Positions 6,221 to 19,102 of a DNA stretch of 22,017 bases are shown here, piece after piece. The notes beneath the pieces were generated by a model. It was given only the letters and a program-made list of their open reading frames with translations. It was not told where the DNA came from and did no database searches. Made by a program: the position numbers and the translations under genes. Source of the stretch: an uncultured Lachnospiraceae bacterium (GTDB taxonomy: Bacteria; Bacillota_A; Clostridia; Lachnospirales; Lachnospiraceae); contig CAJLNC010000047.1 in assembly GCA_905207905.1 (NCBI GenBank), positions 1 to 22,017 of the forward strand. Direction: 5' to 3'. Numbering within the stretch: the first letter of the stretch is position 1; each line of letters begins with the position of its first letter.

Positions 6221-6964
6221 TCACAGTACCTTGGATAAAAAGTCCTTCAATCTCTGATTCGTAGGATTGGCAAAGAACTCTTTCGGAGCGTTCTCTTCCT
6301 TAATCTGCCCCTCATCAATAAACATGACGCGGCTGGCCACCTCTCTGGCAAATCCCATCTCATGAGTCACCACCACCATTGTCATGCCATCCTGAGCCAG
6401 CTCTTTCATCAGCTCCAAAACTTCCCCCACCATCTCAGGATCCAATGCGGACGTAGGCTCGTCAAAAAGCATCACATCCGGATTCATGGCCAGCGCCCTG
6501 GCGATGGCGATTCGCTGCTTCTGACCTCCGGAGAGCATATTGGGATACTCCTTTGCTTTATCCGGCAGGCCTACCCGAACCAGCAGCTCATCTGCTTTTG
6601 CAGAGGCCTCCTCCTTGGTCATCAGCCCCAGCTTCACCGGAGCCAGCATAATATTTTTTTTGATGGTCAGATGAGGAAACAGGTTAAACTGCTGAAAAAC
6701 CATCCCGATCTTCTGACGCATCTGATTTACATTCACGGACTTGTCGGTAATATCCGTTCCCTCGAAAAGGATTTTTCCTCCTGTGGGAGTTTCCAGAAGA
6801 TTCAGAGATCGGAGAAAGGTGGATTTTCCGCATCCGGAAGGACCGATGATTGCCAGTACCTCTCCGCTGCGTATCTGAGTGGTGATACCGTTTAATACTG
6901 TCAGTTTTCCGAAAGTCTTCTGCAAATTCTGTACGTCGATCAACACTTCGCCGTTAGCGTTCAT
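6221..6964 (-). CDS. Polar amino acid ABC transporter, ATP-binding protein (GlnQ/HisP type)
   Basis: This is the cytoplasmic ATPase subunit that powers the importer encoded by this gene and the next two upstream. The 247-residue protein has Walker [10 protein letters not shown] (41-49), the Q-loop at [10 protein letters not shown] (about 91), the signature LSGGQKQR (144-151), Walker B MLFDEP (165-170) with the D-loop SALD, and switch His201 (VTHEM). Length and motif spacing match the amino acid (PAAT) class. The start ATG at 6964 has GGAGG 10 nt upstream. The first 11 nt overlap the permease stop, so the two are translationally coupled. The gene is last in the three-gene unit. The substrate cannot be told from the ATPase. 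Confidence 0.96.
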
Positions 6965-7640
6965 TGTTTCTTAGCCTCCTCTCCAGCCTGCCCACCATTG
7001 CGGTCAGGAAGCATACCAGAACCAGATAGATGGCTGCCACTGCCAGCAGAGGCAGAAGCGCAGAATAAGTCTGGCTCCGGATGATATCGCCGCCTCTGGT
7101 AAGATCCATCAGCCCGATGTATCCGCTGATGGAAGTCTCTTTCATCAGTACAATAAACTCATTGGCCAAAGCAGGCAACACATTTTTAAATGCCTGGGGC
7201 AAAATAATATAGCTCATAGTCTGACGGAAGTTAAAACCAAGACTTCTCCCCGCCTCAAACTGTCCCTGATCGATGGACATAATTCCGGACCGGACGATCT
7301 CCGCCACGTAAGCTGCGGAGTTAAGGCCAAAAGCCAGGATAGCCGTCACCATTTTCCCCGGATCATAAGTGGCAAATATCACATAATATACAATCAAAAG
7401 CTGCACCATCACCGGGGTTCCGCGAATCACGGTCAGATACGCCTTACAGATCAGATTCAGGAACTTAAAGTTGCCCGATTTGTCATGGCTGGAACGGACA
7501 ATAGCAATCAAAAAGCCAAGGAAAATACCGATGAGCACTGCGAAAAAAGTGATCATCAGCGTATTTCCCAGACCATTAACAATAAATTTCCAACGGTTGT
7601 TTTCTAAAAAATTCAACGAAAATTCTTCTGCAAAAGTCAA
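6954..7640 (-). CDS. Polar amino acid ABC transporter, permease (HisM/GlnP family)
   Basis: This is the membrane channel subunit, probably acting as a homodimer because only one permease gene is present. The 228-residue protein begins [18 protein letters not shown], typical of the family, has about five hydrophobic helices, the [10 protein letters not shown] segment, and the cytoplasmic EAA loop ([13 protein letters not shown], from about 129) that docks on the ATPase. The start is unusual. The first usable start in this frame is TTG at 7640: an in-frame TGA lies six codons upstream, and the next in-frame ATG would delete the first helix region. GTGGTG just upstream is a weak ribosome site. 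The gap to the binding-protein gene is 26 bp. It overlaps the ATPase gene by 11 bp. Confidence 0.94.
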
Positions 7641-7666: not shown

Positions 7667-8467
7667 CTATTTGCGTACAATGATCACCTGAGCAGCAGTG
7701 GTATATGTGTCAGTAAAATCTACGGATTTCAGACGGGTCTCATCCACTGTCATTCCTGCTACGCCGATATCTGCTTTTCCGGACTGTACTGCATTGACAA
7801 TGGCGTCAAATTCCATATCCTCAATTTTCAGCTCATATCCCAGCTTATCACAGATAGCCTGGGCCATATCCGGATCAATACCCACAACCGTGCTTCCATC
7901 ATCGCCGTAAAATTCATAGGGCTCAAAAGTCGCATTGGTAGCCATGGTCAAAGTTCCGTTGGAACGATCCACATCTTCCGGGGAAACATAGGGACAGGTA
8001 CCTGCCTCATCTCCAATGTAGTTGGCAAAAATCTGATCCAGAGTTCCATCTTCTTTCAGCTCTGCCAAAGCGCCATTGATGGCTTCTGTCAGCTCTGTAT
8101 TATCCTTGGACACACAAATGGCATATTCCTCCTCAGAGAGAGCCTCATCCAGGATCATCAGGTCATCATTCTTCTCCACAAATTTCTGTGCAGGCTGATT
8201 GTCAATGATCACGCAGTCGATCTTCCCCTGCTTTAACGCCATGATAGCGTCATTTCCTTTATTATAACGTTCTACCACCGTACCGTCTCCGGCTGCCTCA
8301 TACTCTGTAGCCAAGCTATCCCCGGTGGTTCCCAGCTGAACGCCGATCTTCTTTCCGGGCAGATCATCCTTTCCGGCAACCGTTTCCTCTGCAAATGCTG
8401 CTGCGGTCATGGAAACGGTCATCACTGCTGCTAAAGATAGGGCCATAAATTTTTTCATATTCTTCAT
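7667..8467 (-). CDS. Polar amino acid ABC transporter, substrate-binding protein with circularly permuted domain order
   Basis: This is the extracytoplasmic receptor of the importer. The start at 8467 has GGAGGAG 6 nt upstream; an ATG 15 nt earlier lies inside that ribosome site. The 266-residue product starts with a signal peptide (about 1-26, ending AAAFA-EE) that has no lipobox Cys. The mature order is reversed relative to the SBP_bac_3 family. First comes the segment that is normally second: GKKIGVQLGTTG (about 38-49), IIDNQPA with ligand Asp89, and the C-terminal helix TLDQIFANYIG. After a linker comes the segment that is normally first: ATNATFEPYEF (about 176-186), GMTVDETR with ligand Arg245, then FTDTYTTAAQVIIV at the very end. 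Both ligand-contact residues are kept and the total length is normal. This indicates a functional circular permutation, not a truncation. Ligand specificity is not resolved. Confidence 0.93.
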   Translation of the reverse strand: MKNMKKFMALSLAAVMTVSMTAAAFAEETVAGKDDLPGKKIGVQLGTTGDSLATEYEAAGDGTVVERYNKGNDAIMALKQGKIDCVIIDNQPAQKFVEKNDDLMILDEALSEEEYAICVSKDNTELTEAINGALAELKEDGTLDQIFANYIGDEAGTCPYVSPEDVDRSNGTLTMATNATFEPYEFYGDDGSTVVGIDPDMAQAICDKLGYELKIEDMEFDAIVNAVQSGKADIGVAGMTVDETRLKSVDFTDTYTTAAQVIIVRK

Positions 8468-8515
8468 ACTCTTCTCCTCCATACTTTATGCATATTTATA
8501 CATTCATTGTTGTAT

Positions 8516-8543
8516 ATTATAGCACCTTTTTCATAAAAGGCAA
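8516..8543 (-). promoter_or_regulatory. Promoter of the amino acid ABC transporter operon
   Basis: On the minus strand TTGCCT (8543-8538) is separated by 16 nt from a perfect TATAAT (8521-8516). Transcription should begin near 8509, giving a short leader of about 40 nt before the binding-protein start at 8467. No riboswitch or attenuator fits into that leader. Confidence 0.8.
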
Positions 8544-13619: not shown

Positions 13620-15074
13620 TTACCGGTCTGCCAGTTCTCTGGCGATCTCTTCCCAGGTAACGCCTTTTTCTGCCATCAGTACCATCACATGGTACAGAAA
13701 ATCCGAAATCTCATATTTGATCTCCTCCGGATTGGGATTCTTGGCTGCAATCACGATTTCCGTGGCCTCCTCCCCTACCTTTTTCAGGATCTTATCGATT
13801 CCCTTGTCAAAAAGGTAATTGGTATAAGACCCTTCCTTTGGATGAGCCTTCCGGTCCTCAATGACCCCGTAAACCTCCTCAAAGACTTTCATGGGATTTC
13901 TCTCCACATAATCTTTTTTCAGCAAAGTCCGGTAAAAACAACTTTTATTTCCTGTATGGCAGGCTGATCCCACCTGAGCCACTTTGGCCAACAGAGTATC
14001 TTTATCACAGTCAATCCGCAGCTCTTTCACATACTGAAAATGACCGGAGGTAAGTCCTTTCACCCAAAGCTCCTGCCTGCTGCGGCTCCAGTAAGTCATG
14101 CGTCCGGTAGCCACGGTAGACTCAAAAGCCTCCTGATTCATATAAGCTACCATCAACACTTCCTCTGTCTTATAATCCTGCACCACCACCGGAAGCAGAC
14201 CGTTATGATCTGGCTGAAACTCCTGCCAGCTCATGGCACTCTCATAGGTGTTTACCTCTGCCCCAGCGACCTTCAGCTGCCTCTTCAGCCCCATCAGATC
14301 CGCCTGAGGCTCCCGGTATGCTTCCTCCGCCAACCCGGAAATTGCTGCCTGCTTTAAGAGGACGCTCCGCTCCTTAAGGGAAAGGGGAGCCTGCCCCATC
14401 AGTACTGCCAGCACCAAAACCTCCGGATCCTGAATCTCTTTCCTGTCAGTTTCCTCCTCCCCTGGCATCTCCCGTCCATCCGGCCTTTGCCCGCCCTCTT
14501 CCGGCTTGATGACTGTCCTGGCGCCAGTTTCCACTGCTGTCTCTTCCGTCTCCAAATTCAGGAGTACCTCCCTGTCGGTTAGAACTACCAGTTCCTCCGT
14601 GTACTCTCCCAGCGCCTGCTGCCAGCCCCGACGCAGAATCCCGCCGTCATTCTTTTTCCCCTTCTCCTGTCCATGGCTGCTTCTCATATCCAGGCACAGA
14701 GAGATCTTATCCTTTCCAAAGCGATGGGATACCTCCTCCAGCATCGCCCGGTTGGATATTTTAGAGAAATTCAAAACCGCCTTCCTGCACCCTGCGTAAA
14801 TCAGCTTTTTTACATCCTCTACTCTTTTGATATTCCCAAGTCCATACATGGGAATATCCACACTCCGGGAAATCTCCTTGATAATCCCTAAAGCCTCCTC
14901 ATGCTCCGTCTCTTTCTGAGACAGATCAAAAATCAAAAGGGCATCCGCCCCCTGATTGCTGTAATATTCTGCCAAAGTCTGCGCATTCCCATCCCCATAA
15001 GGCTGGGGATCATCCAGTCCCCGAACCGCCTGACCCTGCTTCAGATAAATGACTGCTGCTATTTTTTTCTCCAT
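13620..15074 (-). CDS. hisIE: Histidine biosynthesis bifunctional PRA-CH/PRA-PH with an N-terminal degenerate HisF-like domain
   Basis: It catalyses steps 2 and 3 of histidine synthesis: phosphoribosyl-ATP pyrophosphohydrolase (HisE) and phosphoribosyl-AMP cyclohydrolase (HisI). The 484-residue protein is more than twice the usual HisIE length (~200). HisI is at about 286-385, with metal ligands in DCDKDT (355-360) and Cys372, His373 and Cys379 of [10 protein letters not shown]. HisE is at about 400-484, with [14 protein letters not shown] and [13 protein letters not shown]. Residues 1-130 resemble the first half of the HisF/HisA barrel ([38 protein letters not shown]). The catalytic Asp of the first strand is replaced by Tyr10, and the usual GGG phosphate loop reads GLGN; Asp129 is kept. 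Residues 131-285 are poorly conserved, with an acidic insertion. GGGAG lies 5 nt before the ATG. It is fifth in the his operon. Confidence 0.93.
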
Positions 15075-17923: not shown

Positions 17924-18430
17924 TTACTCTCCTATTCTGATGATTCCTGCATACTGTCCCAGCTCAAAGGCCCGCTTCTCCTCCAAATCCAGGTCTTCGC
18001 CAAGGCACAGCTCCGCAAATTTTCCCTGCCTTCGATACTCCAGAGCCTTGCAGATCGCCTCTCTCCGGTTTTTCTTCCGGTAAAGGATCAGATACCGCCC
18101 CTGTTCAGAAAGAATGTCGATCTTCTGCCTGGACAAGGCGTTCATCAGCTGATCCATCACCGCCACAAACCCAATGGCAGGAGTCTCCTTTCCAAAATGG
18201 GACAACAGAGTATCGTACCGGCCGCCCTTTACCACCGCATCCCCAATTCCATAGGTATAACCCCGAAAGACCACTCCTGTATAATACCGATACGTTCCGC
18301 TTAACCCCAGGTCAAAAGAAACGTACCGTTCCATCTCATAGATCTGAAGAAGCTCCCATACCTCCAAAAGACGTTCCACTGCCCAAGAAGCATGACCGCC
18401 TTTTGTCATTGCAAGCGCCTGTTCCAGCAC
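17924..18430 (-). CDS. hisZ: ATP phosphoribosyltransferase regulatory subunit, C-terminal part (after in-frame TAG)
   Basis: This frame continues the hisZ reading frame directly after the TAG at 18431-18433. From GTG 18430 it encodes 168 residues: the C-terminal part of the class-II synthetase-like fold, with FDLGLSGTYRYYTGVVFRGY, KGGRYDTLLSHFG, and then a short C-terminal domain. GGAGG at 18438-18442 is exactly 7 nt before the GTG, so reinitiation after the stop is plausible. Together with the upstream part and one residue for the TAG codon the total is about 392 residues, normal for HisZ, so nothing else is missing. Either this is a separate polypeptide of a split HisZ, or the 3' half of a nonsense-mutated gene. 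It is 2 bp from the hisG start. Confidence 0.85.
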   Translation of the reverse strand: MLEQALAMTKGGHASWAVERLLEVWELLQIYEMERYVSFDLGLSGTYRYYTGVVFRGYTYGIGDAVVKGGRYDTLLSHFGKETPAIGFVAVMDQLMNALSRQKIDILSEQGRYLILYRKKNRREAICKALEYRRQGKFAELCLGEDLDLEEKRAFELGQYAGIIRIGE

Positions 18431-19102
18431 CTACCGTCCTCCAAACAACCCGGGCAGCTCCATAAAAAGCCGTTTCCATTCCTTGGGCATCTCTTTTTCT
18501 CCCAGCAGCTTTTCTACCCCAAAGGTGTTTTTATTCTCAATCAGTTCCCGAAGCTGTGTCCCCGTCTCCTCATCAAGTCCTGCCTCCTCTGCCAGCGCCC
18601 GAAAAAAATCCGCATGCCCTACACTGATCTGAAACTCCCGCAGCCCTGCCCGCAAAAGAGTGGCAATCACCAGAGCAATGATCTCTGCATCTGCCTCTGC
18701 CGTGCCGTCCCCGATCAGCTCTGCTCCTAACTGGGTCGTCTCTTTTAAATGTCCCTGATAGCTGGAATTATTTACAAAGGTATTTCCCAGATAGCAAAGC
18801 CGGATCGGCCTTTCTTCATCCATAAAATATTTGGAAGCCGCCCTGGCTATGGACGGAGTAAAATCCGGACGAAGCACCAGCGTGTTTCCCTCCCTGTCAA
18901 AAAATTTGTACAGTTCTCTGGAAGGGGTGGTTCCCATCTGGCTCCCAAACACATCAAAAAACTCAAAGGTCGGGGTCTCAATGTCTCGGTATCCGTAAGA
19001 ATTTAATACCTGCCGGAGATTCTTTTCCAGCACCAGTTTTTTCTCACACTCTTCATTATAGATATCTCTGACGCCCTCCGGCGTGTGCAACAGTTTCTGC
19101 AT
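18431..19102 (-). CDS. hisZ: ATP phosphoribosyltransferase regulatory subunit, N-terminal part, ended by an in-frame TAG
   Basis: HisZ is a HisRS-like protein without aminoacylation activity that pairs with short HisG. This 223-residue part begins MQKLLHTPEGVRDIYNEECE and contains YGYRDIETPTFEFFDVF, the class-II motif 2 region TLVLRPDFTPSIARAAS, RLCYLGNTFVNNSSYQGHLKE and QLGAELIG. It stops in LPGLFGGR-TAG; in related proteins the reading runs on through LFGG-x-EVLEEA. If the TAG codon were GAG, the protein would read LFGGREVLEQA, a good family match. This suggests a single G-to-T change. The start has GGAGG 9 nt upstream and follows a perfect promoter. This is the first gene of the his operon. 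The alternatives are a sequencing error, a real nonsense mutation, or a working split gene. Confidence 0.88.
   Translation of the reverse strand: MQKLLHTPEGVRDIYNEECEKKLVLEKNLRQVLNSYGYRDIETPTFEFFDVFGSQMGTTPSRELYKFFDREGNTLVLRPDFTPSIARAASKYFMDEERPIRLCYLGNTFVNNSSYQGHLKETTQLGAELIGDGTAEADAEIIALVIATLLRAGLREFQISVGHADFFRALAEEAGLDEETGTQLRELIENKNTFGVEKLLGEKEMPKEWKRLFMELPGLFGGR
18438..18442 (-). promoter_or_regulatory. Internal GGAGG ribosome site before the second hisZ segment
   Basis: GGAGG lies 7 nt upstream of GTG 18430 and spans the codons of the conserved Phe-Gly-Gly of HisZ, so it exists for coding reasons too. The TAG stop sits between it and the GTG, an arrangement that permits termination-reinitiation. 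Confidence 0.6.

Follow-up and report, generated by a model that had tools for sequence, protein, structure and literature searches.

The 22,017-nucleotide stretch of DNA analysed here, referred to as the window, comes from an uncultured Lachnospiraceae bacterium and carries on its minus strand (7667–8467) a circularly permuted SBP_bac_3 gene. The gene encodes a protein of 266 residues in which open reading frame, Pfam, PDB-sequence and profile matches place the canonical C-terminal half before the canonical N-terminal half, an arrangement that we abbreviate as CN. The reading frame, its coordinates and its length had been given in a first-pass annotation and were correct on re-checking. An in-frame ATG at 8482, upstream of the annotated start, would add 5 residues if it were used. 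Judged by eye, residues 1–26 (8390–8467, minus strand) form a signal peptide of the signal peptidase I type with an AFA/EE end, and this peptide has no lipobox cysteine. A crude motif scan of 94 distinct, separately encoded CN proteins found a lipobox in 73 and none in the other 21.

After the binding-protein gene, on the same strand, come a gene for an ABC permease with a BPD_transp_1 domain (6954–7640) and one for an ABC ATPase (6221–6964), both assigned with Pfam and NCBIfam to the polar amino-acid ABC family. The permease scores 69.8 bits against the NCBIfam model HEQRo_perm_3TM and passes its cut-off of 42.2. The ATPase scores 138.7 bits against PF00005 (cut-off 25); its nearest models are GlnQ and TcyN, and it falls below the NCBIfam equivalog cut-offs of both. 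The binding protein falls below all the listed NCBIfam equivalog cut-offs (GlnH, FliY-type cystine, ArtJ and HisJ). Upstream of the operon is a promoter-like site (8516–8543, minus strand), recognized by consensus match only, with 10 of 12 matches and TG before the second hexamer; seven such sites were found in the region, against 4.2 expected. Rfam gave no match within the window. When it was applied to 11 loci, the one match was a ZMP/ZTP riboswitch downstream of the operon in locus L016, a 3′ position that makes it uninformative about the substrate.

Two further features of the window concern histidine genes. A hisZ-like gene (17924–19102, minus strand) is split by an in-frame TAG at 18431–18433 into two open reading frames, which match two parts of PF13393. 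In a HisIE protein (13620–15074, minus strand), a partial His_biosynth barrel (PF00977, profile positions 2–162 of 228) stands at the N-terminus, ahead of the PRA-CH and PRA-PH domains.

The halves of the binding protein are swapped

PF00497 recognizes the window protein with 126.4 bits (curated cut-off 26.4) and hits it in two stretches, the best of which places residues 173–266 on profile positions 1–92. Alignment to PDB sequences gives the same order, with residues 29–153 matching AncQR 108–233 and residues 170–266 matching AncQR 9–104. We also compared the protein with a canonical profile built from 31 unpermuted relatives of the same bacterial group. The natural sequence matches this profile in two non-overlapping pieces, profile positions 97–217 at residues 27–151 (165.2 bits) and positions 2–95 at residues 170–265 (140.5 bits). 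After rotation of the sequence in silico, a single match covers positions 2–217 of 219 with 311.3 bits. The two pieces are thus complementary and become one on rotation, so that no loss or duplication is visible. The rotated protein is 64% identical to the closest of the 31 canonical relatives (L146).

These results confirm that the window protein is an amino-acid-binding protein of the SBP_bac_3 family that has been circularly permuted in nature; on its sequence, it is a permuted member of the family and not a standard one. The first-pass annotation had read it in this way, with the second SBP_bac_3 half first, the first half last and each block present once. The PDB and profile alignments bear out that order, the profile covers the canonical domain one time, and where a collinear full-length profile match would have spoken against the reading, the alignment came out swapped. 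Its placement of the break at the interlobe hinge also holds and can be refined: the chain is cut where the first interlobe strand ends.

Alignments, profile and structural model together divide the protein into a canonical C half (residues 34–153; 8009–8368, minus strand), comprising lobe 2, the second hinge strand and the C-terminal helices of lobe 1, and a canonical N half (residues 169–266; 7670–7963, minus strand) that has the first hinge strand at its end. Between the old C- and N-termini runs a linker of about residues 154–168 (7964–8008, minus strand), EAGTCPYVSPEDVDR, which is modelled with high confidence. The cysteine previously noted in this linker is present (Cys158), but the segment is about 15–17 residues long and not about 20. 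Cys158 occurs in 23 of the 28 sequences of alignment A1 and is therefore common but not required. Asp89 and Arg245, whose counterparts contact the ligand in GlnBP and LAO, are retained as previously described: they align with the corresponding D and R of AncQR, and none of the 58 sequences of alignment A2 departs from them. Asn178 of the window protein takes the place of an acidic residue of AncQR (E in TEATF), a replacement that might conceivably alter the ligand.

One covalent crossing joins the two lobes

The type II periplasmic binding protein fold has two covalent crossings between its lobes. We modelled the window protein with AlphaFold2, run as a monomer only and with the 58-sequence alignment as input, and obtained a mean pLDDT of 92.6 and a pTM of 0.84. 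The low-pLDDT part of the model is the first 30 residues; the linker blocks reach 95 and 97. Residues 28–112 superpose on lobe 2 of TmArgBP (4prs; 81 residues, 1.5 Å, 42% identity) and residues 168–258 on its domain 1 (6gpc; 90 residues, 1.4 Å, 42% identity). The superposition on a type II binding protein that had been suggested as a check thus succeeds for the two parts, each fitted separately and in permuted order, and the Pfam assignment and best lobe matches are both those of a type II SBP_bac_3 protein.

The top Foldseek hit is 6h30, the GlnPQ tandem SBD1–SBD2. Its sequence match is collinear (residues 19–258 on chain positions 91–322) and spans the border between the domains, pairing the window protein with the C half of one domain and then with the N half of its neighbour.

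The model contains both hinge strands. Residues 111–120 (8108–8137, minus strand; from model secondary structure) and residues 256–265 (7673–7702, minus strand) are, by homology, presumably the second and first hinge strands, respectively. The chain begins past hinge 1 and has the hinge-1 strand as its last, next to the free C-terminus, so that residues 111–120 alone connect the lobes covalently and the window protein has one interlobe crossing rather than two.

Permuted importers in the genomes of Clostridia

A scan of genome contigs yielded at least 526 stretches coding for a relative of the window protein, of which the best 80 were kept. All 80 have the permuted order: in 76 the binding protein is separate, in three it is fused in frame to the permease, and in one (L072) it is fused but interrupted. 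A permease hit accompanies the gene in all 80, and the permease is of the same type throughout, which answers affirmatively the question of permease type raised with the first reading. An ATPase hit was obtained in 77; none was found within the fetched stretches of L017, L035 and L047. The permuted loci include those of the named isolates Blautia schinkii, Parasporobacterium paucivorans, Kineothrix sp. and Roseburia hominis, and the permuted order is also found on a complete Ruminococcus chromosome. Where protein hits carry a source name, it is mostly of the type ‘transporter substrate-binding domain-containing protein’; ordinary annotation conceals the permutation.

Frequencies were estimated in genome samples drawn round known carriers, with the centre genome counted. 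A full collinear match to the permuted form was present in 30 of 150 genomes from the family of B. schinkii (at most 17 candidates scored per genome), in 15 of 120 from the family of a Ruminococcus and, when the whole phylum was sampled with no more than six candidates per genome being scored, in 3 of 398. In 9 of the 30 carrier genomes of the first sample and 2 of the 15 of the second, the permuted protein lay within an open frame of at least 510 residues, as long as a permease fusion. The 150-genome sample also contained a close canonical form in 32 genomes, intact in 31 and interrupted in one (L166). No genome of the 150 held both forms at E ≤ 1e-40, against 6.4 expected (P about 3e-4, with kinship ignored); the remaining 4 of the 66 matching genomes are those of L161, L162, L163 and L164. 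Comparison of 61 permeases from permuted operons with 31 from canonical operons gave a median best identity of 69%. The distribution suggests that the permuted and canonical forms replace each other in the same transporter.

Two loci stand apart in other respects. The record of L079 is labelled as an archaeon (Methanocorpusculum) and carries a bacterial permuted operon, so the contig is probably misbinned. In L011 (3110–4573), a long acidic repeat of the TEAVTEAAET type lies between an apparent lipobox and the permuted domain; it is possible that this repeat forms a wall-spanning tether.

Another group has its cut at hinge 2

The proteins of L161, L162 and L163 show a different order. Their chains start at the second hinge strand; the C-terminal helices and a linker come next, then the N half, and finally, beyond hinge 1, lobe 2. 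A database search with the L162 protein placed the query itself first, and 119 of the best 120 of 7,760 proteins have this order; P0138 combines the same order with an internal repeat. Cultured bacteria have proteins of this kind too, among them entries that bear the names of Thermoclostridium stercorarium, Acetivibrio mesophilus and A. clariflavus. The cysteine of the apparent lipobox is invariant in a 49-sequence alignment. With the centre genomes included, the hinge-2 cut was present in 2 of 299 genomes in a phylum sample and 4 of 96 in an order sample.

The model of one such protein, P0185, has a pLDDT of 90.6 and a pTM of 0.82, and its residues 94–285 fit both lobes of TmArgBP (6ggv) over 172 residues at 2.3 Å and 32% identity. 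A fit across both lobes is what a hinge-2 cut predicts, and the modelled structure is in line with it. The hinge-1 and hinge-2 cuts cannot be derived from the canonical order by one event; there have therefore been at least two permutations, both at hinge strands.

How often the hinge-1 cut arose

The first-pass annotation had asked whether members with the same order form a clade. A main clade of 23 rows does so with support of 99/92 in a tree of 71 rows, but further groups lie outside it in the best tree. Some trees were built from a subset of the rows, as this one was and as was another with 103 rows; the interrupted gene of L072 was left out of the trees. The hinge-1 groups placed elsewhere in the best tree are CNb (L139, L140, L179 and L182) and CNc (L195–L199), and the hinge-2 protein of L161 also falls elsewhere. 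A Papillibacter cinnamivorans protein (P0283) was among the hits of the search with L195.

The grouping depended on what the trees contained. With CNc not yet included, FastTree united the CN and CNP rows, 107 of 107, in a single clade (0.924). Adding the permease shifted four CN rows to two NC rows (96), and once CNc was added the best tree held the hinge-1 groups apart. In AU tests, a single CN clade was not rejected either without CNc (p 0.437, 50 rows) or with it (p 0.19), and the permease alone was no more decisive (p 0.48, 50 rows); grouping CP2 with L161 was likewise not rejected (p 0.312). The linkers of CNmain (L126, TPYEKKDVDRPNGTL) and CNb (L139, TPYFKKDVERPNGTL) are alike, and those of CNc differ. 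The likeness of the linker sequences speaks for a possible single origin of CNmain and CNb. The best tree leaves room for as many as five separate events (CNmain, CNb, CNc, CP2 and L161).

Fusions, tandem genes and three-half proteins

Across 16 fused loci, some of which represent the same genome twice and one of which is interrupted, the permease match begins 7–14 residues beyond the hinge strand. In the fusions, the hinge is thus what holds the receptor to the membrane domain. This fusion of the C-terminus to the permease in some genomes, the cut site at the first strand and the second group cut at the other strand are new beyond the first-pass annotation. Fusion as the ancestral state was considered and is not supported: in the concatenated tree the fused CN–permease genes are scattered inside CN.

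Whole importers are also encoded as single chains. B. schinkii has a frame of 1,137 residues that reads C-N-C-N, then permease and ATPase; L105 (238–3285) holds 1,016 residues of it and is cut by the locus end. A one-chain importer of the same composition, 1,143 residues long, is encoded in L164 (3106–6537). In L116/L177, which belong to one genome, two CN genes stand in tandem before one permease and one ATPase.

Metagenome proteins with three halves could be living intermediates of permutation by duplication; 53 of C-N-C and 9 of N-C-N composition are among the 120 matches listed, in a ranking that favours longer chains. However, they combine the C1 and C2 types as a mosaic, and in the genome loci L001–L199 the C-N-C-N importers are the only proteins seen to carry an additional complete half. 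Chimeric assembly of co-occurring permuted and canonical genes explains such products, although real recombinants would look alike. Their mosaic composition and their absence from L001–L199 make assembly chimeras the likelier account; we consider it unlikely that they are intermediates and do not use them as evidence. The three- and four-half binding proteins of the metagenome sets (P0003–P0024 and others) are accordingly probably chimeras and possibly recombinants, and P0267, a c2-N-C-N protein of 424 residues, is probably of the same kind.

A probable working receptor with one hinge strand cut

The window protein is very probably a working binding protein of a polar amino-acid ABC importer, with its chain permuted at the first interlobe (hinge) strand. 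In function it is most likely an ordinary Venus-flytrap receptor of such an importer. The chain runs from lobe 2 through hinge 2 to lobe 1, and a short linker bridges the old termini. An amino acid would be captured in the cleft, and the protein would close like a Venus flytrap and then deliver its ligand to the permease. The hinge would keep both of its strands, one as the covalent crossing and the other ending near the free C-terminus, and the membrane anchor or signal peptide would sit on lobe 2 and no longer on lobe 1. The cut probably arose by gene duplication followed by trimming of the ends, for which tandem domains may have provided the raw material, and the fold would tolerate a cut at the hinge. 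The new position of the termini could, as the first-pass annotation proposed, affect closing or docking on the permease.

The swapped order might be questioned on two grounds, to neither of which we give any appreciable credence. An ordinary collinear binding protein could be misread through the pseudo-symmetry of the lobes, and collinear alignments of the model to PDB structures do exist over roughly 157–213 residues. These fits have 8–19% identity and mostly 3.0–5.5 Å (one at 7.8 Å), compared with 42% and 1.4–1.5 Å for the swapped parts. Fits as poor as these are expected from lobe pseudo-symmetry, and the sequence profiles, which show the swapped order, already refute the collinear reading. 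An artefact of assembly or rearrangement in the window is just as remote and is refuted by the relatives: 80 loci, which come from many records and include named isolates, share this order.

Another reading accepts the permutation but places the two lobes of each receptor on different chains. Because one interlobe connection is gone and a single covalent crossing is left, lobe 2 of one chain could pack with lobe 1 of another in a domain-swapped oligomer; swapped elements are mentioned for engineered permuted constructs of a ribose-binding protein (PMC10601554). The AlphaFold2 model, run as a monomer only, is confident and has a good pTM, and we regard a domain-swapped oligomer as quite improbable. 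A flytrap permuted at the hinge is the reading that we retain. We extend it only tentatively, and with some doubt, to the proposal that Clostridia have cut the hinge repeatedly and at either strand, and that the resulting ‘single-crossing’ flytraps may be adaptive, with opening and closing or the tether changed and fusion to the permease allowed.

Comparison with known binding proteins

Binding proteins of the SBP_bac_3 type are a standard system for hinge motion and a main scaffold for biosensors. The window protein shares with GlnBP, HisJ/LAO, TmArgBP and AncQR, all of the SBP_bac_3 family (PF00497), the same two lobes, the conserved Asp and Arg and the operon partners. It differs from them in that its halves are swapped, its termini lie at the hinge and one covalent crossing remains instead of two. 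The permutants described here occur naturally and widely, and each has either its first or its second hinge strand covalently broken; unpermuted relatives at about 63–64% identity use the same permease type. With such natural pairs of permuted and unpermuted proteins, what each hinge strand contributes to opening, closing and docking can be tested directly.

Among the entries listed in a search of one open-access library, covering mostly titles and abstract openings, there was no natural permutant of SBP_bac_3. Natural permutation is already known for a Type I binding protein, and what is described here is the variant in SBP_bac_3. In TpMglB-2 (Tp0684), a glucose-binding lipoprotein of Type I, circular permutation has occurred in nature; the protein binds glucose and shifts conformation, and it has relatives in gut Gram-positive bacteria (‘Type Ic / cluster Bc’; PMC4990184). 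TpMglB-2 resembles the window protein in being a naturally permuted binding protein of an ABC system, but it has the Type I sugar fold, and its permutation adds a fourth crossing near the hinge. In the window protein, which has the type II fold by Pfam and lobe matches, a covalent crossing is lost where TpMglB-2 gains one. Circular permutants of binding modules have also been engineered in FRET sensors (PMC7683729, PMC3454389); these are likewise permuted ligand-binding modules but were made on purpose in the laboratory.

The CN–permease fusions resemble importers of the GlnPQ type (6h30, 4kqp) in combining binding and membrane domains in one chain. The tandem domains of GlnPQ contain a C–N order in their middle, yet each binding domain is canonical. 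In the CN–permease fusions, unlike in GlnPQ, about 7–14 residues connect the first hinge strand with the permease.
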